A DNA stretch of 64,000 bases from Carex sylvatica (lineage: Eukaryota > Streptophyta > Magnoliopsida > Poales > Cyperaceae): contig CAXKVR010000093.1 in the NCBI GenBank assembly GCA_964058845.1, forward strand, positions 62,001 through 126,000. The letters are read 5' to 3'. Numbering within the stretch: position 1 is the stretch's first letter; each line of letters starts with the position of its first letter. The notes under the pieces were generated by a model. It was not told the origin of the DNA. It was given only the letters and a program-made list of their open reading frames with translations, and did no database searches. Positions 5,430 through 53,298 of the stretch are shown here, piece after piece. The position numbers were made by a program, and so were the translations under genes.

Positions 5430-8400
5430 ATGGTTGTGTGGCACATAATTCTTATGTTAATATTCACAGTTACCATTCGAGTTCATAGTCAGCTTGATTC
5501 TAAAGGTAACCACCTCTCTCTTTCTCTCTCTGTTTCTCTCTCTCTCTCTTTCAAAATACTTTGTAGTGGCAACCAACCTCTCTCTCTTCCTCTCTCTCTC
5601 TGTCTCTCTCTCTAAATAGCGAGCACACTCGTATAGACACGATGAACAAACCTTGTGTGCATCATTTCAAAATTTTGGTATTTGACTTCTGAGTCTTCCA
5701 AATTGCACTAAATACACAAATTTTCAAGAAGGTCATTTTTTTTAAAATCTTATGTACTTGCTACAATTTTTGAAATTATGAGCAAAATCATTTTCAAACA
5801 TTCTATATCATCCACTGGCTACTATTTTCTCATATCAAGAGGAAATTTAAATGAAAGAAACATCTAAATTACAAATCAGCAATCTATAAAAAAAATTTCA
5901 TGGTAATAATCACATTGAATAACTTGATTAGGCCGTTTTAAATCTAAACCCAAAAAAAGTAGAAATAGATATCCACTTGTCTACGACATTGTTTGACTCT
6001 TTCTCTTATTTCATCTACCTATATTTGTATATATTCTGAATGAAGAAAGCGATTATTTATGACAACGAAGATAATCAGTTTGAGTATGCAGTCTGATTAT
6101 TGTACTATATTATAAAGAAACGGGAGTAACTCATGTATGCAAAAGAAAAAAAAATATTATTGCACATCAACGGAGCCACTTTCAGGCAGACTGCAATTGT
6201 CTCTCCCCTCCCCCCTGCCCTCCCCCTCTTCCCTACCAAATATTAAATTATACATCTAGACGTAAGAAATTATAAAAATATTCTTGGCTTTCAGGCTTAT
6301 TATTGCTTAATTATGCTCAGGACATATTAAATATTTTTGTAAAATATGTTTCATAAACTATATATCTAACAGAAAAAAATTACAAAAATCTTCTTCTTTT
6401 TAAAAGTGAATCAATGGCACTCGAATAACAAATTTCTTTTTTCTTATATGTATTCTTATATAATAAGTTAACAGAAATAATATTATTATACATAGATGCA
6501 TTATCGAATAAGATATGAGTAGAATAAACGGGTAAAAGAGAATCAATGGCACAACTTGTATATTGGGGGAGGTTGACTTTGAAACAATTTGTTAAAGATA
6601 ATATCTGACAATTTCATTTTTTATTTTATTTTTTGTAGGCTTTTTGAATATTGACTGTGGACTTCCCGCAAACTCTAACTATGTTGACAATGCAACGGGA
6701 TTAACGTATGTCTCAGATGAGCAATTCATCGATACAGGAAACTATTCCCAGATTTCATCCTCTGTTATCCAAGCCAGAGAATATTTCACAGTTAGATATT
6801 TTCCGATAGGAACTCGAAACTGCTACACCATTAGATCCTTGACAGTAGGCATTAAGTATCTTATAAGGGCAACATTCAATTATTCAAATTATGATAACTT
6901 AAATAAAATCCCTATTTTTGATATATATTTAGGAGTCAACTATTGGGATACAGTAGAAGTTTCCCCTTTCTATCCTGAAATAATTATCACTGCTAATGCT
7001 GATAACTTGCAAGTTTGTCTGGTTAATAAGAATCTCGGCAATCCTTTTATTTCTTCATTATATTTGAGGCAATTGAAGGGCATTTACCCATTTCTGAATT
7101 CGACACAATCATTGGTTTTGAGGTGGAGGCTTAATCTTGGAGCAGGCAACCGAGAGTTAGTAAGGTCAGTACTATTAATTATTGAAATATTTATTTCTTA
7201 ATTAACTACTTGACTCTAATTCATTTCTGAGTTAGTAATCTGATAATTTTATCCAGCTATTGTCAACAAGTTATACCCATTTTCTATGCAAACTATTCGT
7301 AAAGTGCATTAAGAATAATGAATTTATGATATAATTCCCAAAAATTATTGCCTTCTCAATGATAAAGCAGCACTGCAGTTTTTGTAATTATTTATTTTTT
7401 TGGTAATATTTTGATAATATTTTATTAATATTTTTAGACAGTTTTTTTTGTTGGAATGAGCTTAATTTGATGTGAAGTTATGATCATACTTGTTATTTTC
7501 CTCCTTTGCAGAAACTTATATTACTACAATACTCTATTTTCTTCCTCCATTGCTAAGTTAATTTACACCAAAATATAGGTACCCTGATGATATCTATGAC
7601 CGGTGGTGGTGGAATTACACCAACAGTGGATGGAAAGAGATCTCAACAAACTCCACCGTAGAACCTGACCCAGACTTTGAAACCCCCTCTCTTGTGATGC
7701 AGACTGCTGCAACCACTTCAAGTACCAAAGAACCCCTTAACCTCAATTGGTATAGTGATGATATGTCCACCAAATATTTTTTCTTTCTTCACATCAATGA
7801 GTTCCAGACATCGTTAACTGGTCGAAGGGAGATTGATATACTTGTCAATGGAATTCAGGAATTCCCTGAACCAATTATTCCGGAGCCTTCCGGTCCCTTA
7901 TGGACCGCTCACTTGAGGTCAGGTTTTACTAATTATACCGTCTCACTCGTGGCTACTTCAAATTCTACTCTTCCTCCTCTACTCAATGCATTTGAACTGT
8001 TTAAAGTATATCCTGTCATGATACCCACTTATGGTGCAGATGGTAAGTTTTTCATCAGTTCAAATTAATTACCAATGCTATATTAGTAGAATGTACTTGT
8101 GACAACCTAGTCATAATTATTTTCATAAGTTTAAGAATTCTAGCAAACTGGCAAGGGGACCATGATGGTTGTGTTCAATGCTCATAATTCAAAAACATGG
8201 TTCTACTACACTATTATATCCTTTTCTCATGTTAATTAATTGATGTTTGCCTCAAACTTGTAATATAGTGAGTGTGAGACAAACTCCCTCTAATCTGCAC
8301 AAAATGGAATTGAAAAAAGAAAGTAAAATTATCGTAACAAGCAGTAACACTTAATTAGAATTGAGAACTGTACATGCTTATAATATTTTGAAAATTAGTG

Positions 8401-11400: not shown

Positions 11401-13241
11401 TGATCTAATTTGATGTTATTATGCTTTTACAGAGTGAAGAATCTTAAGCTAACAAATGTCGTCAAATAACAGATGATGTAAAGCCTCTTACATGGAAGCA
11501 GCGACTTAGAATTGCATATCAGTCTGCACTAGGTATCGTTCAAAAGCTTTTTCTAATCCATAATAGAATAAAATAAATTATTGTCATAATTTCTCTCCAT
11601 TCATTTTCAGAATAATATATCCTGGAAAATAATTTAATGTAGCAAATCGAATAACAGTTAAATCTTATGACTCTGATTAAATCTTAGTGTCATAATCTTT
11701 ACTGCAAGCTTTGTGTTGTAGTTCTTCTATAATTGTTTCTCCAGCTCTTGTCCTTTAAATGTAAATAAATTACTGACAACATTTTGAGTTGATTGAAATA
11801 TTGTTACGAAGGGTTGGAGTATCTGCATAAGTCTTGTAATCCGCCACTAATCCATAGGGATGTCAAGACCACCAACATTCTCTTAAATGCAAAACTCGAG
11901 GCAAAGATTGCTGATTTTGGGCTCTGCCGGACTTTTGACGATGATGCAATCAGTTATGTTTTAACCAGAATAATAGGCACTCCTGGTTATGTGGATCCCG
12001 AGTAAGAAATTCTTTTGTTTGTGAAATCTTCATCTTTTTTATTTTGTTTTCTCAACATCACAATTTATTTGACAACCATGAAAAATGACATTGAAATTGG
12101 GAAAATAATATGTATGTATGCATGCATGTATGTATGTATGTATGTGCATGCATGCATGCATGTATGTATGTAGGTATGTATGTAGGTATGTATGTATGTA
12201 TGTAGGTATGTATGTAGGTATGTATGTATGTAGGTATGTATGTATGTATGTAGGTATGTATGTATGTATGTAGGTATGTATGTATGTATGTATGTAGGTA
12301 TGTATGTATGTATGTAGGTATGTAGGTATGTATGTAGGTATGTATGTAGGTTATGTATGTAGGTAGGTATGTATGTAGGTATGTATGTATGTATGTATGT
12401 AGGTATGTATGTATGTATGTATGTATGTATGTAGGTAGGTATGTAGGTATGTAGGTATGTATGTATGTATGTAGGTATGTAGGTAGGTATGTATGTATGT
12501 AGGTAGGTATGTAGGTATGTATGTATGTAGGTAGGTATGTATGTAGGTAGGTAGGTACGTAGGTACGTACCTATGTACGTACGTAGATAGGTAGGCAGGT
12601 AGGTAGGTAGGTATATATATAAGTATGATTTGGTAGTTCACGATGTACTGAACAGTGTTTTCACTTAAAAAGTTTCTTATAAAAATTTCAACCAATAAAA
12701 ACTGATTCTATTGGACAAATACATATGATAACCTACTATAAAAACTGATTTGTTGATAATAATTTTTTTCTGACAAATAGCAACTGATTCTATTGGATGA
12801 TTCAAAATATTTCCGATGTGGTAAATAACTTTGGCATGCATCTTCAGGTACTATTTATCGAACCAGCTATGTGCCAAGAGCGATGTGTTCAGTTTTGGAG
12901 TTGTTCTCCTAGAAATCATCACTGGCCAGCCCCCTACTAACGCGGGTGTAGAAGGAGTTAACTTAGTTAGATGGGTCCGTGAAAAACTATCCGGAGGAGA
13001 TATCAAAAACATAGTAGACCCTAGAATAAAAGACAAGTATGACATAAACTCAGTCTGGAAAGTTACGGATCTAGCATGTAAATGCACAGAGTTCACCTCT
13101 TCTGAAAGGCCAACCATGGCTGTAGTAGTTGCTGAGCTCAAGGAAAGCCTGGATTTGGAAACTTCAATGGAAGAAATGGATAACAAAAGTGCTGAGACCT
13201 TATTAACTGATGAAAGCAAGGACAGAGAGATGGCTTCCTAG
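5430..13241 (+). CDS. Malectin-like / LRR receptor-like kinase (LRR-I group), 14 exons
   Basis: Inferred exons: 5430-5505, 6639-7164, 7579-8042, 8444-8606, 8695-8766, 9248-9319, 9404-9487, 9828-9958, 10633-10647, 10822-11075, 11243-11369, 11473-11532, 11812-12001, 12848-13241. All junctions are GT-AG and sum to 875 codons. Exon 1 encodes a signal peptide ([20 protein letters not shown]). Exons 2-3 give a malectin-like ectodomain (IDCG start, YPDD-DRWW). Exon 4 has GDPC, and exons 5-6 are two 72-nt LRR units. A membrane segment ([14 protein letters not shown]) follows. The kinase shows [30 protein letters not shown] and GTPGYVDPE, so it looks catalytically competent; DFGLCR departs from the DFGLSR common in the group. 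By family it is a plasma-membrane Ser/Thr kinase whose relatives act in immunity or symbiosis; the ligand is unknown. Two introns hold a hAT MITE and a large microsatellite. Confidence 0.9.
10163..10527. mobile_element. hAT-type MITE in an intron of the kinase gene
   Basis: A 365-bp insertion starts TAGGGTGTTCA and ends TGAACACCCCGG, giving imperfect terminal inverted repeats. It is flanked by 8-bp near-identical direct repeats (ATGGTAAG at 10155-10162, TTGGTAAG at 10528-10535). Size, TIR and 8-bp duplication fit a non-autonomous hAT element. It carries GGTTTGGTTT-type internal repeats and no ORF of note, and it sits in the intron before the 15-nt exon. Confidence 0.75.
12108..12615. repeat. 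Compound (GTAT)n/(GTAG)n microsatellite in a kinase-gene intron
   Basis: About 500 bp of nearly uninterrupted tetranucleotide repeat, mainly TATG with interspersed TAGG and TGCA variants. It degrades towards GTAC/GTAG units at its 3' end. It fills most of the first half of the intron between the APE exon (ending 12001) and the last exon (starting 12848). The long minus-strand ORF of repeating Y-H-T-Y residues here is a translation artefact. Confidence 0.95.
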
Positions 13242-16165: not shown

Positions 16166-16435
16166 ACCTACATAGACTCAGCCAACAAAAAATCCTCCAA
16201 AACCCAAATAAAGACAAATCATATGAGTTCACCTCCAGCCGTCAAATACAAATACAAATACAACTACAACCACCAGAAGCCATCCATACTCGGTCCTCCA
16301 CCTATTCTACAGTTACCTCATAACTCCAATCAAAAACAAAAATCACTCAACCATTCTCTCCTTTATCCACCAAAATTAAATCTTAACCCTACTTCATCCC
16401 TTTGGTCTCAGACCAAACAAGAAATAACTAAAAAA

Positions 16436-17511
16436 ATGGATCAATCCGACGAAGAACTCATCCGAAAATTTGCAGGCCTTCAAACGAAAAGTCAAAACAG
16501 CGCGACAATTGTTACCCTACCATCAAATGCATTAAAGGATCGAAACTGGGGTCTATGCATCTTGGTGAAAGTTATATCCGATCACACAGTTTTTGATGCA
16601 CAGTTTGAGAAGCAAATGAGACGTGCATGGAGGGTTCATCCTTCAACAATCTTCTCTGTGGCAGAGAGGGGTCTATACCTAGTGGAGTGCGAAAACAAAA
16701 GGGACTACACAAGAATACTATCTGATGGACCTTGGACTTATAGAGAAGACCTAGTGGTGGTAGATGAATGTGCTTCTATGGAGGAGGCAGATGGAAGCAA
16801 ACTCACTCATGCTGAACTGTGGGTCCAATTTCACAACCTGAGGGCGGAATCGTTGACGGAGGAAGGTATCCGGATCCTAACAGATCCAATAGGGGTCCCT
16901 TTATTCGATCCTATCATTGGACACGTGAATGGTAAGCAATTTTTTAGGCTCAAAATTATGATACACTGGATAATCCGATAAAAGATCGGATATCGGCAAC
17001 TAACACAGTTTTGGGCCAAACCGAGGTATTTCTGGTGTACGAAAAGGTGGGGCGTATTTGTTGCTTTTGTGGGGCCTTAGGCCATAATATGCCTTCATGT
17101 TCTGATAGAGCAAGGCTGGCAAAAATTAAGAGTAAAATGGCGGCCCAGAATAGGCCTGATTTAGATGTGATTCTAAGGCCGACTAGAGGCTTATGGATCA
17201 CCGATCAAACATTGGTACCTACTCAAAGCCCTTCCAAAAAAACTCAGACGGGACCAAGGCCCAAAAGTCATGCAACAACCGAACCAGTGATTGGCCTAAA
17301 AAGGAATTTAAATGAACTCAATCGACCCCACACCAGTAGCGGATCATCTACCCCAACCGATCAGCTCTTACTGACAGGAGACTCGTCTTCTCCAATCAAA
17401 CACCAACAAGAGGAGAAAAAAACGGAAAAAGGTGAAGAAAATGTTACCTATCAAAAATTTAAGGCGGCACGACCCTCGGCAGTGGCTGGGGCGCCGCTGG
17501 CCCAAAAATGA
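16436..17511 (+). pseudogene. LINE ORF1: DUF4283-like RNA-binding protein with CCHC knuckle, frameshifted
   Basis: The chosen start is ATG 16436 (MDQSDEELIRKFAGLQ); an upstream in-frame ATG exists at 16223. An RRM-like DUF4283 region follows (LCILVKVISDHTVFDAQFEK ... ILSDGPWTYREDLVVV). The frame is lost around 16950-16965, reaching a stop at 16979-16981, and resumes in frame +1 with DNPIKDRI. A CX2CX4HX4C knuckle follows (CCFCGALGHNMPSC, about 17056-17097), then a basic, P/T/S-rich tail. The ORF ends at TGA 17509-17511, overlapping the ORF2 ATG. By family it is the nucleic-acid-binding chaperone of the retrotransposition particle. One indel explains the break. Confidence 0.85.
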
Positions 17512-20500
17512 GTGTCTTCTCATGGAATTGTCGAGGCAGTGGAGGGCCCTCGATAATCTCCAATCTCAACCGTTACCTCCGCAGCACAGGGGCTCTCCTA
17601 GCCTTTATTTCTGAGATGAAGTGTTATGAGAAAACAGCGAGAAAGAGAATAGCAAGATTACCTTTACATAATTGTAAGATAGTTCCCTCTCGAGGAAGGG
17701 GAGGGGGCTTATGGATGATTTGGGGGAACGAGGTCTCGGTCACTGTCTTAGAGACCTCACTTTCCTTCATAGTCGCCAAGGTCCAATTTGGACCAGCGGC
17801 GAAGCCTTGGCTGATTTTTGCAGCATATGGCGATTGTGACGATAGACGTAACAATGAGATTTGGAATAAGTTTTCAGATTATACCTCCAACTGTGACTTA
17901 CCTCTTTGTGCTATTGGAGACTTTAACTGCATAGCTGATCAGAGTGAGAAGCAAGGGGGTTGTTCAAAACTGAAGGCAAAGCATACTAAATTCCGATCTT
18001 TTCTTCACAGAACGGGATTGATGGACTTGGGCTACTCGGGTCCCGCCTATACTTGGGCTACTCGGGTCCCGCCTATACTTGGGCTAATAATCAAAAAGGG
18101 AGATCTTTGATTCTCGAGAGGCTTGATAGGGCTATAGCAGCTACTGATTGGGTTAACATATACCCAAATTCGAAAGTTTTTCATATCCCAAATTACTCAA
18201 GTGATCATCTTCCGATTCTTTTGCGAACAGAACCAAAACCGAAATGAAAAGTTAGAGCTTTTAAGGTGGAACAATGGTGGCCTTTACAACATGACTTTGG
18301 GGATCTGTGTGCTAGAGCAGGGAACAACAGAAATCAGTCTTGGGAAGAAATATGTCATACCTTTAAAAAAGAAGTCAGGGCATGGGGCAAGGGTGCAAGA
18401 GACCCGAATTGGGAAGTTTTGCAGATTGAAAAAGAAATGAATTTGCTAATTAACCAACCACAAACTGATTCAGTGCGAGAAAGAATAGCAATTCTACAAG
18501 AAAGTCATAAGGAATTCCTAGCAGCCCAGGAAGCGTATTGGCTTCAACGTTCTAGGCTGAATTGGGACTTAATGGGGGACCAAAACACACGTTTTTTTCA
18601 TATGACGGCGGTTGTCAGGAGGCAAAGGAATAGAATACAAGCTATCCAAAATAGCAAGGGTGAATGGTTGGTAAAAGAGGAGGAGATACGAAAGCAGTTT
18701 GTTAATTACTTCAAGATAATTTACAAGGCAGACTCTCCGGTTGGGGATATCGCACTAAGCCAATTTACTGAAATAATCAGGGATGAAATTGTAAAGGTGC
18801 CTCAGCCTGACTGTGCGGGCCTGAATTTGATTCCGACCGCAGATGAAATAATATGGGCTGTAAATGCTCTCGGCCCACTCAAATCCCCGGGCCCAGATGG
18901 AATTACCGCTGCCTTAGTTCAGCAACAGTGAAAATACTTTGGGCCGATAATCATAAAGGAGGTTGAGCTGTTCTTCAACACAAGAGTTATGAAAACATCT
19001 AATGCACACTCAAATCTAGTTCTCATCCCCAAGATAGATACACCGGCCAATGTCACTGACTTTTGACCGATTAGTGTATGCAATATTGTGTATAAGATAA
19101 TTTCTAAACTTCTGGCAAAGAAGATGCAACCGCTGATGACAAAAATCATCTCAAACGCCCAAACTGCTTTCATCCCTGGAAGGGAGATCTCTGATAATGT
19201 GATATTGCTTAGAGAAGTGATACACAATTTCAAGAAGTCTTTCAATGAAGACCAACAATTTGTCCTTAAAGCGGATCTCACAAAAGCTTTCGACAGATTA
19301 AATTGGGAATTACTCTTTCATTTCTTGTCGTTTTATGGGTTCCCAACTCAATTCTGCAAATGGGTAGAAGCATGTGTGAAGTCGGCCAGATTTACTATCT
19401 TATTCAATGGCACTGGAGACGGGTTTTTCTTACCGTCAAGAGGGCTTAGGCAGGGATGCGCCATGTCTCCCTACTTATTCATCCTAGCAATGGACCCATT
19501 GGCAAGGCTTCTCAATCATAGCCTTACCTCGGGTCTGATCTCAAGCCTAAAAATTGCTAGATCCGCAAACCCGTTAACGTGTTCGCTCTTCGCAGATGAC
19601 CTATTGATCATGGGGAAACTTACATCAATGGAGGTGATTAACATTGCCTCCATTCTTAATCAGTTTTTTTTCCGTTTCAGGTCTCTCAATCAACGAAACA
19701 AAGTCAAAAGCATGGTTCTCAGCAAATGCAACACTGCAAGGCAAGCAAATTCTAACAGAAAATTTCCGCATGGCTGAAGCAAACTCTGAGGAGAAGTACT
19801 TGGGGTGCCCTATAGCAGTGGAGGGGGACAGATCTTTCGATTACCTCATTGAAAAATTTGAGAAGAGACTCAATCATTGGAAAGCGAATTTCCTGACACA
19901 TGCTGGGCGGTTGGTACTGATCAAATCAGATCTAAATAGTTTGCCAATCTATGCTATGGGGACAGTGGTGCTGCCGGGAAAAGTAATCGTTAAATTAACC
20001 GCGATCGCTCGTAATTTCTTTTGGGGAGGGAAGCATGACAAAAGATGCCTATCGTATGTGGCTTGGAAGGAGGTCACTAAATCGAAAGGAATGGGTGGTT
20101 TAGGTTTGAGGAGCCTCAATGAAATGAACCGGGCACTAGTACTCAAGATGGTGTGAAAAATGGCTAGAGGAGATGATACGCAATGGGTCAAAGCAATGCA
20201 AGCGAGATACTTTCCAAGAGGCGCCTTCTGGTCAATTCAGAGGAGAGATAGGTGTTCTAAATTTTGGAAACAGATCATGCAACTAAGACCACTGTTGGCA
20301 ATACATGTAGTGTGGAAGATAGGGAGTAGGTGCAATATTAACATCTATTCCCAGCCTTGGTTCCCGGGCTGGTAGGATTTAGTTGCAAGAACATCTCAGT
20401 AGAGATAGGAAAAGCTGTCATCTCTGATAGACACCAATACCAGAGAATGGGACTTCGACTGTCTACAGCAACTGTTTGGATACAGTCAAGCCCTAGTGAT

Positions 20501-21602
20501 AGCTACACTGGATGCAATCAAACCATCTCCTTCACCAGCACCTGACACGTTACTGTTCACATACTCAAAAGATGGCAAATTCTCAGTGAAGAAAGCATAC
20601 CAGATGATTAAAGGGGAACCTAATAAACCTGATGATAAAAAATTCTGGAATTGGCTCTGGTGCGATACCAAATTGACACCTAAATTGAAGGTCTTCGTCT
20701 GGAGATGTGTCAAAGGTGCTCTACCTGTCATGGCGGTATTGTCATACAGAATGCGTCACATCTCTCCCACTTGTCCGATCTGTCAGACTCAACCAGAGAC
20801 GATTATGCATTCATTATTCCACTGTGAGTTTGCAAAAAGGGCTTGGCTTGTATCTGCCATACCCCTCAGAACTGAAAACATGGTAGGAGGGTTCAAAGAG
20901 GTAATAGAGGCCATGGCTGAAAGATTGTCAGAAATGGAAGCTTGCGATTTTGTAAGCACGCTATGGGCAATTTGGAGAATGAGAAATGAGGCCGTTCATG
21001 GGGGTAAAAGGCAATCAATAGAAGCTTGTAGGGCTTTCTATAGAATGAAAAGAGATTCTTGTCAGATAAGAATTCTCACATCTGGAATATCACCAACAAG
21101 CCATGTCACAACAAGTGAAGAGGAAGTCGGGGAGCAGGGCCAGTCTCAAATCACTTTTCAATGCTATGTTGATGGCTCTTGGAATCAAGGAGGTCTGGCT
21201 GGCATAGGGGTATATCTTCTCAAAAAGGGGAAGGTAACTCAATGGATCTCTAGATCAATTATAGCAATTAACCCTGCGCAAGCTGAAGCAAAAGCCTTGC
21301 TAGAAGGGTATCAACTACTGGTACAATATGCAAATGGAGAGGGTAAGCTATTCTCTGACTCCAAGGAAACTGTTGTTGCTTTGTCAAAAAAAGTCCCTGA
21401 AATTGCTGACTGGAGATCCCACCAGGAGATTTGGAAGGCATGGACCATTCAGGCGCAGCATAAACATAGAATTACTGCTTCCCATTGTGGAAGAGAGCAC
21501 CCAAAACTAGCTATTGCTCATAGATTAGCAAAGCAGGGTAGGTTGTATGGCTGGGATAGGAGGGGTAGTACTGAGCCAACTTTCAATCTGGATGAAATGT
21601 AA
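17508..21602 (+). pseudogene. LINE ORF2: endonuclease-reverse transcriptase-RNase H, broken
   Basis: ATG 17508 opens an AP-like endonuclease (FSWNCRGSGGPS; GDFNCIAD; SDHLP). The reverse transcriptase follows (LKSPGPDGI; DLTKAFDRLNW; SRGLRQGCAMSPYLF; FADDLL at about 19594-19611), then the RVT zinc-binding region (CPICQTQPETIMHSLFHC) and RNase H (YVDGSWNQGG; AEAKALLEG; FSDSKE). The frame is broken by a 26-bp tandem duplication (18025-18076) and a one-base gain in a T-run near 19664-19671. In-frame stops lie at 18245, 18929, 19064, 20154, 20373, 20400 and 20406. Allowing for both indels the length is about 1355 codons, normal for a plant L1. The element cannot encode functional enzyme. Confidence 0.92.
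18025..18086 (+). repeat. 26-bp tandem duplication in LINE endonuclease
   Basis: The 26-bp unit beginning ACTTGGGCTACTCGGG is present at 18025-18050 and exactly again at 18051-18076, followed by its first ten bases at 18077-18086. The duplication repeats GYSGPAYTWA and shifts the reading frame by two. Confidence 0.97.
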
Positions 21603-31556: not shown

Positions 31557-34088
31557 TTAGTAGTTTGGATTCATATACCATTGTTCGCTCTCTTCGGCAC
31601 CGTCAGAATCAGAATTAGCCTCACGTCGCGCCTCGGTACCGCTTTCTTCAGTGTCGGCTTCAGATGATGATGGTTGTTGAGGCACATGTTGCGTACGCTC
31701 TTCAGCAGCAATCCAATCCTTCAAGCACACAAGTCTCTCAAAAACATGTGCACCCAACTTACTTCGTTTATCGGAGAGGATCCTGTTCGCCGAACTGAAA
31801 CAACTTTCAGAAGGGACGGTTGATACGGGCACAGCAAATACATCGCGGGCCATCATAGCCAGCGTTGGCAAGGAACTTTGATGCCTCCTCCACCATGCCA
31901 TCACGTCAAAGTCCTTGTTCATTTTCATTGATCATCGATATATAGCCCAATAACTCGTTTGCGGATGTGTGCGGTTGGCTCTCCGACTGAAAATCTGCTA
32001 ATAATCCACCACTGCTAGTGCTCCTAGTAGTGGAACTATTTAACAATTAAAAAAATTAGTGGACAAATAATGTAGATATTATAAATAATAAAGATTGAAA
32101 ACACATGTATATTTATATTCATACCTAGGGGCGGGACGGGACGAAGCTGGGTTTCGGTTGTCACTCATTCTTGAGTGGTATATGTTAAACATCTCATCGA
32201 ACTTCGAATTCACGTAAGCCTCCACTCCGGTTGAGTCTAAATGTAAATTCTGTTTGTACCTCTCAACTACTTTGATCGTGTAAAACTTCTTGTATGCCGG
32301 GTGGAGGCAGTTTGCGATAATGGCTAGGAGAGGTACATCTTCCCAATATTTTAGGAATTTTTGTTTCATGGCATCTACAATTGGCGTGAGAGATGCATCA
32401 TAGATTTCAAATTGTTCTAATTCGCAATACACCTTGGAGATTTCATAGAGATGTCTCAGCAACTCAAACAACGTCGGTGAGTACGAGCATGATAGTTGAA
32501 CTGTTGCAGTAAAAAAGATTCCAAGGAATTTGCTAAGCCTTTGCAGTTTATCCCATTCTTCGTCAATGAGTTCGAATTGCAATGCCTCGGGGTTGGAGCT
32601 TCTCAAAAACTCACCTATGACAGCTTTGTAGGGAAGGCATCGGTTCAACAACCTATATGTTGAGTTCCAACGGGTATCTATATCCCAAGGTACCTTCAAC
32701 TTGCTCAATCTATAGGTGACGCATAATGCAGCAAACTGTTGTTTTCTTTCTTGGTTTGAAACAATGTGGTTGAGGGCATTCTTAAATTTAATTATCAATA
32801 GTTTTACGGCTTCTGTTTTTAGACCCGCCTTCACGACGAGGTTAAGAACGTGGCAAGCACACTTTTGGTGAAATATTTCACCATTCATTATCGGGTTTAG
32901 TGACCGTTTAAAAATCTCAATGGAAGCAATGTTGTTGCTAGCATTATCGAAGGATATAGAAAAAACCTTGTTACCAAAATTCCTCTTAAGGTTATACTCT
33001 TCTAAAACCTCAATAATGGATTTGAAAATTACAGTTACAGTGTGGGGGGAATCCAAAACTCGAAAACTTAATATTTTTTTTTGTAATACCCAATGATCAT
33101 CGATCCAATGGCCGGTAATACAAGAGTACCCAAGGCCATGTTTACCGGCAGTCCATATGTCGGAGGTAATTGACACCTTATTGTTTTGGTATGCAAATAG
33201 AGCTTTAAGGTCGTTTTTGGTGGAGGTAAACTGGTTTTTTATTTCACCAACCATCTTTCTATGATGGATCCTCTTGTACATTGGTTGACCTAACCCCCGA
33301 ATGCATAACCGGGCAAAACTCGTGCAACCACCCATACTTATTGGTTGTTCTTTATGGGTAATGTACCGGGCCAATTCACTAAGCATTTTTGATTCATCGA
33401 ATTTTGGATTTGTTCTGGTACCATCCGCGTTTATAAGGGTTTGGATTTGTCCCGGTTCAGAATTTTCAGATGGAAACTCACCCTTTTTTTCGTGCGTCTC
33501 GGCATGTCTCTTAAAATTACTCAAACCACTACTTTGTTTATACTCAAAAGTTTTTCGGCAAGTTTTTACCTTACATTGTCCAAAAGTCATAATGTTGTTA
33601 CTCCCTCTGGTAATTTTGTAAAATTTTGCCCACGGTTGATTGTATTCGGGGGGAGGTCTTTTAGTCTTCTTTCCTGCTGGTTTTTGCGGCGGATCACTTG
33701 TCGAAGGAGGGACAACTTCTTCTTGAATTTCAGGTTCACCTGTCGAAGGTGTACCTCCTACAGGAGCAGTGTCAGTGAATTGACTGGATGCTACAGAAGA
33801 AGAGCCAATGCCTCCATATGTATACTGTGGTGTCGGTTGAAGTGTTTCTTGTGGAATGTATACATTTGGATCGTTTGAAGTATAATACGGTGCATTCATT
33901 TGTGAGGGTTGTTGATAATTCAAATCTAGCATTTGGTCCCTTCTTTGATAATTTGGTGGAAAATTTTGTGGATAATTAGGTGGTGCAATTTGGGAGGAAC
34001 TTTGTGGATAATTTGGTATTGACGGGCCAAAAAGATCGGCCGAAAATCTCACGATGTCCTCTTCCACGGAATCACGATGAGATAACAT
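31557..34088 (-). pseudogene. hAT transposase (BED finger, dimerisation domain), intron and one frameshift
   Basis: Exon 1 runs from ATG 34086-34088 down to 32125. Its N-terminal region is P/Q/N/Y-rich. A BED-type zinc finger follows (GQCKVKTCRKTFEYKQSSGL then NFKRHAETH), then the catalytic core (SDIWTAGKHG; ISFDNASNNIASIEIF; CACHVLNLVVKAG; DTRWNSTYRLLNR). A GTATGA donor follows 32125, and a TAG acceptor puts exon 2 at 32035. Exon 2 reads ANELLGYISMINENEQ and then meets a stop. One frame over, DFDVMAWWRRHQSSLPTLA leads into the hAT dimerisation region (VPSESCFSSANRILSDKRSK) and ends at 31557. A single-base indel around 31915-31925 explains the break. If active, the protein would bind and cut the element ends in the nucleus. 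Domestication is unlikely because the flanking TIRs and duplications are intact. Confidence 0.88.
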
Positions 34089-48130: not shown

Positions 48131-48160
48131 TGTCACTAGTACAAAAAACCTCTTCACTGA

Positions 48161-48470
48161 CTGTTCAAATACCCCTACACCGACTATTATAGCAGCGTCA
48201 GTAAAGTCGGCGCCAGTGAAGGTTACCCTACACTGACTGTTAAGAAACAGTCAGTGTTGGTACCTACAGTGACTGTTTTTAAAAACAGTCAGTGTAGGGT
48301 ACCTACAGTGACTGTTAAAAAACAGTCAGTGTTGGTACCCTACAGTGACTGTTTTTAAAAACAGTCAGTGTTGGTACCCTACAGTGACTGTTTTTTAACA
48401 GTCACTGTAGGTACCCTACACTGACTGTTTTTAAAAACAGTCACTGTAGGTCCTAAAAACAGTCGGTGTT
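48161..48470. repeat. Left subterminal array of the CACTA element
   Basis: At least ten copies of ACTGACTGTT / AACAGTCAGT in both orientations, many as palindromes around TTTTTAAAAA and separated by GGTACCCTACA. Known CACTA elements use such arrays as TNPA-type protein binding sites. Confidence 0.93.
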
Positions 48471-48908
48471 GACATAAAATTTTTGGCATGGTTCTTCTTG
48501 TATCGGGGCTAGCCTCCATATTTTTGCTAGCCATATATATTAATATACGACATTCATTGACATTAAATAGAATATCATGCAAATAACGTAGACAACATAA
48601 ACAAAAGACAACACAATTTAATAACATAACATATTCATTTACAAAAAATCACACTATAGCAAAATTTACATAACACATATGACTTCATTCCAATTTAATT
48701 TAGAGTTGTAACAAAAAAAAAAAACTCAATATATAGGGAAAAAGCAGCAAACATTTAACAGAAACAATCTTTGCCATCCTACTAGGCTAACATTTTTTTG
48801 CTATTTGCAAATAAATGTAAATGGGCTTGTTGCGTATATAAAAAATATTGAATGTCATTTTATAAAGTTTCCCAAGAACCAAAGTAGAAAGAAACTTATT
48901 CAATAAAC

Positions 48909-49089
48909 CTCTCCTCGGAGCTTTGCATAGTAAACAGCCCGGTATCCGCCTTGGCCAATCTTATTAGCCATGCTAAAATCATTAGTGGCTTTGGAGAGCT
49001 CTTCATAAGAGAACTCTACAGATTTGTCAACATTAACTCAGCTACTGGAGAGGGAGCATTATCTGCTGATGAATCTATGGACAAATCGC
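48909..49089 (-). pseudogene. Captured exon of a CERK1-like LysM receptor kinase (kinase start)
   Basis: On the minus strand, acceptor TTTATACAG precedes 49089 and donor GAGAG|GTTTAT follows 48909. The 3' two thirds read [20 protein letters not shown] then [20 protein letters not shown], the juxtamembrane/P-loop region of the chitin receptor CERK1/LYK family. The glycine loop reads GQGGYRAV where the family has GQGGFGAV. The exon start ([19 protein letters not shown]) is out of frame with the kinase part by one base. The rest of the kinase is absent, so it cannot encode a receptor. It lies within a CACTA element, implying capture of genomic (intron-containing) DNA. Confidence 0.88.
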
Positions 49090-49671
49090 CTGTATAAACA
49101 AAGAGATGGCCAAAATTATTAGTAAAAGTAACAAGAACATAAACCAGCGTTTGCAAAATATTAAGGTAATTGTTGAATTAACTCGACCATGTTAAGGCCC
49201 AACATAACTTGCTGCAGAGGCATTCTATTAAGTCAATATGTAGGCAAGGGCAATTGAGTAACTTTTTGCTGGATATTAATTTAGCTTAATATGTTACAAA
49301 TTATACACCTAATATTTGTAAGCCAAAGTAGTCTAACATGAGTTCAGAACAGGAACTGTTGAGTGTCATTTGCATAAGATAAGGGTATTATGTATGTATT
49401 AGATAAGAAGATTTCCAGCGTGAAATCCAATTTAGCTCAGCTACTGGTTACAGTTTGGTTGGTTCAGTTATTACAGGTTTTGCATTGCTCATTTGTTGGG
49501 GTTTAGACCTAATTGTTTTTAATCCATTGACACAGAAGAATTGCACAGAAGAATCAAAAATCTTTACATTGACACACCATACAAGCTGTTACTTCTTTAT
49601 GAGATTTTTGCTTGAACTCAATAGACCTTACTGCTTTATATACAAATGTAAACACTAGTTCAAATATTTAC

Positions 49672-49708
49672 CGCTTTGAACTAAGAGCACAGTAGCTTCC
49701 ATTAGGAT
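49672..49708 (-). pseudogene. Captured 37-nt exon of the CERK1-like kinase
   Basis: On the minus strand, TTTCAG precedes 49708 and a GTAAAT donor follows 49672. With a preceding G the exon reads DPNGSYCALSSK, matching the short segment that ends the LysM ectodomain in CERK1-type receptors (pattern RDPNG.Y..L). It lies upstream, in transcript sense, of the 48909-49089 exon, the expected order. The transmembrane exon expected between them was not found. Confidence 0.68.
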
Positions 49709-50448
49709 CTGAAATAAAGCCAATATGCAGATTTAAGTTGCAATTTCAACAAACCAAAACCAGAAAAACATTTAAGTTGCAATTTCCTGAATCAGAACAA
49801 AACAAAAGACAAAAAATAAAGCCAATATGCGAATTTATTAAAACTTAAAATCTATTACTCAACATTTAAGTCAATATTTTCAGATTTGTCCTCGTTAGAA
49901 TGGTTCCATCATACAAATTAGAAGTGCCCAAAATTTCAATTGTCCTGAATATGAACCCAACTAGCTAATTAAATCTAATACAGATTGAGCATACACAAAG
50001 GCAATAAACCCCTTTCCAAGCCCTGGTGGCCAGCTAGCCTGTATGCATAACCCTATATCAAGCCTCGGTTAATCCTCAATTAAGCACTATAACCTCATTT
50101 TAATCTAAAGTCTCTTCAATTAAACATTAATGCTAGATGTCACATTTAAGCCTCATGCTAACTCATTAATTAAACATTGTTAATGAACCCTTGAACCCTT
50201 GCCGAATCAGAAAGCAGGCTCAGAAGAGAAGTACTTTTCAACCCTATATTCTGCTTGACTTGATATGAAAGTCTAAACTTCCTATGATTATAATGAAGGG
50301 ATAATTTATCATATTTGCAAATAAATTGGGTACAAAAATATGGATTCACTTTTTCTTTTGCATTGTCAAATTGAATTAAAAAAATTGAGGAATGCACACA
50401 AAGTATAATGTAGCAGCACGACAGATAGATAGATAGATAAACAGATAC
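49709..50448. other. Intronic or filler DNA inside the CACTA element
   Basis: No exon recognised. It lies between the captured isoamylase exons and the captured CERK1 exons and is probably intron sequence from one or both donors. An 80-bp GATAGATAGATAGATA-type run lies near 50424-50440. Confidence 0.4.
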
Positions 50449-50541
50449 CTGGTACAAGTTGGGACTGCCGCAGAGACACTCCGCAAAAGCTCCTGCAAAG
50501 CCGTTGGTTCCTTTTATAAACTGCCGCACTATATCCCGATA
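50449..50541 (-). pseudogene. Captured isoamylase 1 exon (second)
   Basis: On the minus strand a GGCAG acceptor precedes 50541 and a GTATCT donor follows 50449. The 31 codons read YRDIVRQFIKGTNGFAGAFA then ECLCGSPNLYQ, a block highly typical of plant isoamylase-type debranching enzyme ISA1. The frame is intact. It directly follows 50653-50713 in transcript order and phase. Isoamylase trims amylopectin in plastids; this fragment alone has no catalytic core. Confidence 0.9.
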
Positions 50542-50652
50542 CTGCCATTAAAACTGATTAATCACAACCCATCCCCCTCCTTTCACAAAAACACACTACT
50601 ACGAAAAAAAATACTGAAAAATTATTAGAAAGAAAAAGTGTGTGATGCTGAC

Positions 50653-50713
50653 CTGGCCATTCCATTCAGACCAAACATTCCAGTGTGGGAACTGTCCCAT
50701 TTGGTAGAGCCCA
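50653..50713 (-). pseudogene. Captured isoamylase 1 exon (first)
   Basis: On the minus strand a TTTCTGTCCAG acceptor precedes 50713 and GTCAGC follows 50653. The 61-nt exon reads GLYQMGQFPHWNVWSEWNGQ, matching the isoamylase segment after the conserved AEAWD motif. Its phase joins without a break to the next captured exon. Confidence 0.88.
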
Positions 50714-50989
50714 CTGGACAGAAACAAATTAGCACAAATTAAATTGTATATAATCAACAAAGCCAGTAAATTTCAATCCAAATGCTTTATCTTAACAAAA
50801 CTTGAGCAAAAAGGGAAATTTTTTCTTCAAATAGAACTCTATTGATCAAATCAAGGAAAGAAAAGAACCCAATTTTCTGAAATTTAACGAATTGGAGCAG
50901 TAGGTCGAAATATGATATCGAAAAGCAAAATACAAGCCTCTGACAAAAATGCATGTTACAAGAGCACAAATTAATCTTCCAATTAGGTC

Positions 50990-51420
50990 GTAAGCAAGAG
51001 CGCTATAACCGTCGCTGCCTCTATTACTTCCCGTCCAGGTAGTAGAAGGGGAGAGAGATAAAGAGAGAAGTTATGAGCAGAGAAAATAGTGGAGCATCGA
51101 CCCGTTTAATCGGATTGATAAAAGGTACCTTGATGTGAGAATCAACGGCGAAAAACTTAGATCGGGGGTCAGAGAGAAAGAGAGCGATCGCGGCAAGAAG
51201 AGGCAGCTCTGGATCGGGGGTCAGAGATAGAGATAGACATCAAGGCGGAGGCATGCTCGGAGGTGTGCTTGTGCAAGGCGGAGGTAGAGGTGTGCTCGCC
51301 GAGAGATTAGAAGGGTTTGGGTTTCGAAATTTTGTTTTCTCTTAGAGGTATTTGGGTTTTGAAATTAGAAGAGTTTAGGGGAAGGGCCGGGAAATGAAAA
51401 TTTCCTTAGCGCGCGCGGCT
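50990..51420 (-). promoter_or_regulatory. Possible promoter / 5' leader for the captured exons
   Basis: GC-richer than its surroundings and, on the minus strand, rich in CTCTCTCT-type pyrimidine tracts. It has a candidate donor (CACATCAAG|GTACC, about 51131). Its position upstream of the captured exons in transcript sense suggests it could supply a 5' exon. This is inference without a defined TATA box. Confidence 0.3.
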
Positions 51421-51475
51421 GGTTGAAAGAGAATGGGGGGACGAAAATTTTTCGCTAGCAAATTTTTATATCAAG

Positions 51476-51670
51476 AAACACCGACGGGCTGCTAAAAATA
51501 AAAAAACAGTCCGTGATGAACCCAACACCGACTGTTTTAAAAAACAGTCAGTGTTGGTTGCTAACACTGACTGTTTTTTAAAACAGTCAGTGTTGGTTGC
51601 AAACACTGACTGTTTTTTTTAAAACAGTCAGTGTTAGCAACCAACACTGACTGTTTTTCAAGCGTCAGTA
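51476..51670. repeat. Internal ACACTGACTGTTTT array of the CACTA element
   Basis: At least six inverted motifs identical in type to the terminal arrays, but about 1.6 kb from the right end. It suggests rearrangement, for example fusion of two element ends or an internal duplication. Confidence 0.9.
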
Positions 51671-51949
51671 AAATTTGAATTCAATTTTTTCTGCAATAAA
51701 TATATATACAACATTAGAATAATTTTAGGCAAAATTTGAAGTTAGAATTAAATTGAATTTAGAATAATGTATCTTAATAGCTTATCACATTGACTGATTA
51801 ATTAATTCACATATTCTCCATCTTGATGATCATGCCGTAAATAACTGGCATCATCGATATCATCATTTCTTATTTCGGTGGAAATCACATTTCAAATAAC
51901 TTGTGATTTCCTTTAGGATTCTCCATCTTCTTGCATTATCTTGTAATTA

Positions 51950-53033
51950 TTAAATTCGTATGTGTAAAAACTTGAAATATTTTAAGTTTTAACTTGATTT
52001 TATTAAATAAATTAATGTGTTCAATGAAATGTTCAAACCAAAATAATATATTTTTAATTATGATATTTGAAAAAAAATAATTAAGAGAAAAATTTAAAAT
52101 AGAATGAAAAATGGTACAAATAAAAATATGAAAAATAAATATAATTTTTAAATAAAATTCACATAATACACAGAAATTATTATTTTTAAATAAAATTGAA
52201 CCCTAATAAATTATTTATGAATGTACAAGTAAAATTATCTAAAATTTCACATAGTTTATTTCTATGTGCGCGTGGTTCTCCTCAACGTGGTGTTTAATTT
52301 GTCACATCGATCCTCACAGAGTAGATACGATATACTTTGATTATATTTACAACACTGCCCGTAAGACAATATTATATAGTATATAAAATAAATGGAGATT
52401 GTACTGCTAATTTTTTATATAATAAAATAAAATTGCAAGATGTGTTTTTTAAGCGTCAGTGTTGGTGCTCAACATTGTTTTTTAAGCATCTATAAATTCA
52501 ATTTAAACAATTAAACTTAATTATTACATATCTTACAAAATATACACAATGCATAAATTTTTATTCTCAAATAGTTATACATCCCTAATAAGTTATTTCT
52601 AAATGTACAAGTGATATTAATAATTTATTTCTCAAATAGTTATACATCCCTAACATGAAATCTATCTACAATTTAAATTTTCACTGTTTCTAATTAATAT
52701 ATTTTTATTTTTATTTTGTTTAACATAAATTAAATTATCATATTATTTATTTATGTACGTATTTTCTTAACAACTAATCAAAGTTTAAAAATATATTATA
52801 AATTTGAAAAGACTTAATTGTATTGTAAAAATTCACAAATTACTTAATTTGATTGCCTTATAAAATTTGTTAACACACGCAAAATTCTAGTTGAAATCAA
52901 TTATTTAATTCGTATTTGTAAAAACTTGAAAGATTTTATTAAATAAATTAATATATTACATGTGTTCAATGAAATGTTCAAACTAAAATAATATATTTTT
53001 AATTATGATATTTGAAAAAAAAAACAATTAAGA
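51950..53033 (+). repeat. Imperfect direct duplication inside the CACTA element
   Basis: About 51950-52085 and 52906-53033 share GTAAAAACTTGAAA, TTTTATTAAATAAATTAAT, GTTCAATGAAATGTTCAAA and ATATATTTTTAATTATGATA in the same order. The second copy abuts the right subterminal array. Confidence 0.85.
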
Positions 53034-53270
53034 ACTAACACTGACTGTTTTAGAAAAGAGTCAGTGTTGAGCACCAACACTGACTGTTTTTAAGGAGTCA
53101 GTGTTAGTACTCAACACTGACGCCTTAAAAACAGTCAGTGTTGGTGCTCAACACTGACTATTTTCTAAAACAGTCAGTGTTGAGCACTAACACTGACTGT
53201 TTCTAGAAAACAGTCAGTGTAGTATGAGCAACACTGATGCTTTGCTTAAAATAGTCAGTGGTGAAGGGTC
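53034..53270. repeat. Right subterminal array of the CACTA element
   Basis: About ten ACACTGACTGTTTT / AACAGTCAGTGTTG motifs in alternating orientation, partner of 48161-48470. Confidence 0.93.
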
Positions 53271-53298
53271 GGTGAAGGGGTTTTTTGTACTAGTGTGT

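Follow-up and report, generated by a model that had tools for sequence, protein, structure and literature searches.

A multicopy CACTA element of Carex sylvatica with fragments of SDH4, isoamylase 1 and CERK1-like genes

Structure of the element

The DNA analyzed here, hereafter the window, is a 64,000-nucleotide stretch of the Carex sylvatica genome (assembly GCA_964058845.1, contig CAXKVR010000093.1, here C93:62001-126000). At 48134-53295 it contains one complete, non-autonomous CACTA transposon of 5162 bp, whose interior holds pieces of host genes. The ends are exact 17-bp inverted repeats, CACTAGTACAAAAAACC at 48134-48150 and its reverse complement at 53279-53295, and TGT stands on either flank (48131-48133 and 53296-53298). 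Three arrays of a CACTGACTGTTTT-type motif lie at about 48200-48470, 51503-51669 and 53034-53250. An earlier note on this DNA had described perfect 17-bp CACTA termini, TGT duplications and subterminal arrays, all of which are present, and had proposed that the element captured exons of isoamylase 1 (ISA1) and of a CERK1-like LysM kinase. The features are as follows.

48131-48133: left target-site duplication, TGT, from the sequence (GAT in the copy on contig C97, ATG in that on C109)
48134-48150, plus strand: left terminal inverted repeat, CACTAGTACAAAAAACC, with an exact reverse complement at the right end
48200-48470: left subterminal repeat array, CACTGACTGTTTT-type motif
48909-49089, minus strand: captured CERK1-like exon, running from the juxtamembrane segment into the start of the kinase domain and bounded by an acceptor and a donor
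49672-49708, minus strand: captured short CERK1-like exon, encoding PNGSYCALSSK and split codons, bounded by an acceptor and a donor
50449-50541, minus strand: captured isoamylase-1 exon, YRDIVRQFIKGTNGFAGAFAECLCGSPNLYQ (protein matches, tblastn, splice sites)
50653-50713, minus strand: captured isoamylase-1 exon, GLYQMGQFPHWNVWSEWNGQ (protein matches, tblastn, splice sites)
51058-51214, minus strand: captured SDH4 piece, consisting of the 3' part of the first coding exon (51129-51214), its donor and the beginning of intron 1 (51058-51128), from homology to contig C141
51215-51500, minus strand: leader particular to the family, common to the window and the sister element C81:3985-6943
51503-51669: internal array of the subterminal motif, positioned as in the transposase-bearing relative on C199
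52486-53278: right-end family sequence, including the subterminal array 53034-53250, with 94% identity to C199 across 789 columns for 52486-53264
53279-53295, minus strand: right terminal inverted repeat, exact reverse complement of the left end
53296-53298: right target-site duplication, TGT, matching the left flank

Ends that start with CACTA, a 3-bp duplication and subterminal arrays of direct and inverted repeats place the element in the CACTA superfamily. A Pack-MULE would have a long target-site duplication and MULE-type ends; here the duplication is 3 bp and the ends are CACTA. The element has no transposase of its own. In the genome searched (63,982,083 bases in 950 contigs), the Transposase_21 family has 114 matches, none of them on contig C93 (120 of 120 first-look candidates scored), and the longest stop-to-stop frame in the element spans 125 codons.

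Captured gene fragments

The cargo was mapped by tblastn of proteins from Carex and related plants against the element, together with inspection of splice sites. In minus-strand order, from right to left, it comprises SDH4 (succinate dehydrogenase subunit 4) at 51214-51129, extending to 51058; ISA1 at 50713-50653 and 50541-50449; and CERK1-like sequence at 49708-49672 and 49089-48909. Because introns are present, the pieces are genomic DNA rather than cDNA, drawn from at least three genes and all lying on the minus strand. The earlier note was right that there were at least two acquisitions, but this count is too low, the SDH4 piece at 51058-51214 having been missed. Its cargo span of 49000-50720 also needs adjustment: the CERK1-like exon reaches 48909, and the second, short CERK1-like exon at 49672-49708 is an addition.

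The identification of the splice-flanked, minus-strand ISA1 exons holds. Against the Protein Data Bank (PDB), the two exons match plant isoamylase 1 with an E-value of 1.3e-29, and among the 120 matches listed, out of 304, the top score belongs to Carex littledalei isoamylase 1, which is 96% identical across 96% of the query. Both exons are flanked by AG and GT.

The CERK1-like assignment is also borne out, with an E-value of 3.7e-16 against chitin elicitor receptor kinase 1. For the exon at the kinase start, the highest identity among the 120 of 276 matches listed is 93%, to four CERK1-like proteins of Carex rostrata; ranked by E-value, the list opens with a protein from Rhododendron at 72%. 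The short exon matches the Carex rostrata CERK1-like protein at 92% over 13 residues (E = 0.005, single-subject search). AG and GT flank both exons as well. Relative to the Carex CERK1-like proteins, the exon at 48909-49089 is frameshifted, with GDLSIDSSADNAPSPVA in one frame and VDKSVEF in another, and it reads GQGGYR where Carex rostrata has GQGGYG. The transmembrane segment, which in the Carex proteins separates the two captured pieces, was not found by tblastn against the element.

The SDH4 piece is 93% identical to the resident sequence C141:188147-188299 and has a splice donor only. An open reading frame (ORF) further downstream on C141 encodes the C-terminal part of SDH4. The name is used because of a Carex rostrata protein, which is the first of 14 protein matches to the SDH4-like resident gene (77% across the whole query). 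The 106-residue C-terminal part gives no match in a PDB search, and its match to Pfam CybS (E = 3.5e-4) falls short of the curated cut-off. The protein matches for ISA1, CERK1 and SDH4 would by themselves suggest a sedge, probably a Carex, as host. Next to the SDH4 gene at C141 we also observe a broken relative of long open frames that, by inspection, resemble a hAT-type transposase and occur at 32079-34088 (minus strand) of the window and at 82-2597 of L041.

Copies and recent spread

A DNA search of the species' own genome, as the earlier note had suggested, identifies two more complete copies of the element, C97:127320-132641 and C109:92946-98305. The three insertions carry different target duplications (TGT in the window, GAT in C97 and ATG in C109), and the C109 copy has one mismatch in one end. 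When the cargo is used as the query, it matches five places genome-wide, namely the three copies, C141 and C81. Within 1.2-3.1 kb on each side of the three copies, the shared pieces are only 51-284 bp long, 67-84% identical and at differing distances from the insertion. Because the flanks have just these short, variably placed pieces in common, the copies represent independent insertions. Segmental duplication was considered as their origin and is contradicted by the differing duplications and by flanks that share short repeats only.

Over the 2720 positions of block 48681-51400 there are 7 differences between window and C97, 4 between window and C109, and 7 between C97 and C109, with one additional 3-nt insertion in C97; this leaves nine variable positions across the three copies. 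That the captured block differs at only 4-7 of 2720 positions argues for a cargo package that moves as a unit and has spread recently. With a substitution rate of 1.3e-8 per site and year, the copies diverged very roughly 0.1 million years ago. One unit inserted three times with different duplications also excludes chance. The element has thus multiplied as a unit with its cargo, in three copies with three duplications. We consider it almost certain that this is a non-autonomous Pack-CACTA element, which carries genomic fragments of SDH4, ISA1 and a CERK1-like gene and has been multiplied together with them.

The family and its transposase-bearing relative

With at most one mismatch, the end motif occurs at 86 genome sites, compared with 2 for the reversed control. 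Identical 3-bp duplications are present in 10 of 10 complete elements compared at both flanks (nine with exact ends, including the window and C97, plus C109), a count that covers these ten among the candidate pairs of the end-motif list. A further complete element of the same end family, with TAA duplications, lies at C93:38730-45261, about 17 kb before the window.

A relative with the right end of the window element encodes a CACTA transposase: a Transposase_21 match at C199:99302-99937 falls in a 1093-codon frame between exact ends at C199:87792 and 104693. From the right end inward, C199 consists of array, spacer, internal array (about 102240-102500), pyrimidine-rich leader and transposase gene. 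The window element follows as array, spacer, internal array, leader (common with C81) and cargo.

Other members carry different cargo. The sister C91:319220-324438 has the same ends, TGG duplications, a different leader and MPP10 exons (C91:320850-323900, L073), which match Pfam Mpp10 with E-values of 1.8e-8 and 1.6e-7, both passing the cut-off, and a PDB entry at 5.3e-5. C29:271634-275274 has GCA duplications and two exons (C29:272900-275300, L077) with relatives at C320 and C675 that are 94-97% identical; the exon spacing is nearly that of C320. The C29 cargo, which putatively derives from a USP-kinase gene, has no Pfam, NCBIfam or significant PDB match, and weak kinase-like matches (E = 0.003-0.13) occur on the resident contigs C320 and C675 that carry its relatives. 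A sister element of about 3 kb, C81:3985-6943 (L042), combines the leader of the window element with cargo to which no gene could be assigned. The elements on C64, C444, C43 and C157 (L075, L076, L078 and L079) have interior blocks 88-96% identical among themselves and read as another non-autonomous subfamily. Their interiors, read in part, contain no recognized host exon, and six of their ORFs have no Pfam match above cut-off. Across the family members beyond the window element, ten ORFs scanned of the 196 present likewise have none. Overall, host exons are recognized in three of the eight element interiors read, some of them in part.

Direction of the cargo

C91 and C29 have the right-end type at the low coordinate and plus-strand cargo; the window element and C199 have it at the high coordinate and carry their cargo or transposase on the minus strand. 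Each of the five gene fragments identified, in all three elements concerned, is therefore read from the right end toward the left, like the C199 transposase, and the identified cargo occupies the transposase position of C199 in the same sense. For independent fragments, five out of five would occur by chance in about 1 case in 32, and counted by element in 1 in 8; the sample is small, and the window's three fragments may not be independent.

Because all five fragments share the direction of the transposase, the family could conceivably trap exons in sense orientation, with a constant chassis in which host exons of the same direction repeatedly take the place of the transposase gene. We offer this tentatively, and it is with similar reserve that right end, internal array, pyrimidine-rich leader and left end might be listed as the parts of the chassis. 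If this were true, the cargo would be read from the element's own promoter. TATAAAA precedes the leader in the window, but we make no promoter claim from it because it is absent from the compared stretches of C81, C199 and C91. A bacterial-type promoter scan of the window was set aside as uninformative for plant DNA.

Coding state of the cargo and alternative explanations

The splice sites of the ISA1 and CERK1-like exons are intact, and the reading frames are broken. In the predicted fully spliced RNA, the longest ORF (83 codons) starts in ISA1 and joins ISA1 and CERK1 residues; if the intron after the second ISA1 exon is retained, the longest ORF has 139 codons, mostly intron. Since the frames do not join, no working protein would be expected from the cargo. 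Any effect would be at the RNA level, through chimeric transcripts or through small RNAs that target the parent genes.

The native splice sites retained by the identified exons and the 83-codon ORF across ISA1 and CERK1 could nevertheless be taken to mean that selection maintains the cargo as a new, functional chimeric gene, as could the variable positions, none of which (0 of 9) falls in the four ISA1 and CERK1-like exons. About 1.2 would be expected in these 372 bp, however, so that zero is unremarkable; one of the nine (51178) is in the SDH4 exon, and the distribution among copies says nothing on selection. Moreover, across the ISA1-CERK1 join the short CERK1-like exon is read in a frame other than its own, the other CERK1-like exon is frameshifted, and the ORF begins inside ISA1 behind upstream ATGs and includes no complete domain. 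We regard a selected chimeric gene as very unlikely.

It could also be argued that ordinary host DNA with gene pieces lies between two CACTA elements that inserted separately, a possibility that the earlier note had itself raised and under which the internal array at 51503-51669 might be left over from a second end. This is refuted because the 5.2-5.4 kb unit recurs, complete with its two ends, at three sites whose duplications differ; the ends belong to one mobile unit. The internal array is, in addition, a feature of the family, because it is also present in C199, C91 and C81. We therefore give the two-insertion explanation practically no weight. Capture of the fragments as reverse-transcribed spliced copies, for which we found no supporting point, can be dismissed with near certainty for SDH4, ISA1 and CERK1, given the introns between the ISA1 exons and flanking the CERK1-like exons and the extension of the SDH4 piece into intron 1 of the resident gene.

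Several observations weigh against a multiplied Pack-CACTA element as we describe it. The leader of C199 has no detectable homology to that of the window, even though the right-end block and the arrays are common to both. Transcription and splicing of the cargo, like the present mobility of the element, are predictions from sequence. Finally, searches of the assembly did not recover the loci that donated the ISA1 and CERK1 pieces, so that any placing of the capture boundaries within introns, or any ordering of the events, would be provisional. Beyond the three copies, the peptide search for ISA1 gives one weak match (E = 0.012) and that for CERK1 gives 74 generic kinase matches of at most 28.5 bits. 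A CBM_48 search of the genome finds none, and the same search is positive in 10 of 14 control genomes. Every flowering plant is expected to have genes of the ISA1 and CERK1 types, and because no donor matches were obtained the assembly is probably partial; these searches ignore introns and an exon-split domain may escape them, so they demonstrate neither donor absence nor the degree of completeness. Significant matches were obtained for both ISA1 and CERK1 themselves, and the earlier note's provision that their lack would overturn the capture does not apply.

Proposed mechanism

We envisage that the transposase of full-length relatives recognizes the ends, which are seen to be shared, and would move the element in trans. 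Error-prone repair of the element, or its re-formation, may have brought in the fragments, either by template switching in gap repair or by fusion of neighboring insertions, and the fragments then multiplied together with it. The published model of Pack-CACTA capture is fusion of neighboring insertions with complementary terminal deletions (PMC8903248 and PMC13317346). Repeated repair patches fit several short pieces from multiple genes at least as well as insertion fusion. Where the leader meets SDH4, a few bases (ATCCA) are common to the leader of the sister element and the resident gene, an overlap that is compatible with microhomology and is no test of it. With the cargo behind the internal array and leader in the transcriptional sense, read-through RNA could be spliced as an SDH4-ISA1-CERK1 chimera.

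Other features of the window

By inspection, consecutive long frames at 16166-21602 (plus strand) resemble a LINE, with endonuclease and reverse transcriptase, and frames at 6602-8068 (plus strand) resemble the ectodomain of a malectin-like receptor kinase. A tandem repeat at 12058-12637 translates as a long run of the THIPTYI type. The Rfam scan of the window has nothing at gathering score, and the tRNA scan finds none.

Comparison with known systems

The process is already known from other plants; the window element is a new example of it, with cargo beyond that of the first reading. Searches of the open-licence PMC literature, some of which covered result lists only, showed neither a CACTA element carrying isoamylase sequence nor CACTA gene capture in Carex. 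CACTA elements make up 1.6% and 4.1% of two Carex genomes, according to PMC9526063, in which neither 'gene capture' nor 'isoamylase' occurs.

The closest parallels are as follows. Tgm-Express1 of soybean (PMC1947982) is a 5.7-kb CACTA element with exon and intron pieces of five unrelated genes, which are spliced into chimeric transcripts, and the window element likewise holds exonic and intronic pieces of unrelated host genes. Tgm-Express1 is known as an insertion in a flower-color gene, whereas the window element, known from sequence alone, has three copies and sisters with other cargo. Pack-CACTA elements of maize often hold coding DNA from more than one locus, most of all among Pack-TYPE elements (PMC8903248). 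The window element resembles them in being non-autonomous, with CACTA-type ends, duplications and coding fragments, and differs in its host lineage and donor genes, which are new. In the three elements with identified cargo here, that cargo takes the position and sense of the transposase; in a word search, PMC8903248 treats orientation for neighboring insertions and not for cargo. The Jozin CACTA elements of Chenopodium (PMC8978399) share the subterminal arrays and captured gene fragments, and the window cargo is distinguished by standing where the transposase gene of C199 stands. Spliceable pieces of mitochondrial, starch and immune-receptor genes are brought together in one mobile unit at three sites, exon shuffling in the making, and the young copies, with sisters carrying other cargo, would allow the study of CACTA gene acquisition, orientation bias and RNA effects on parent genes.

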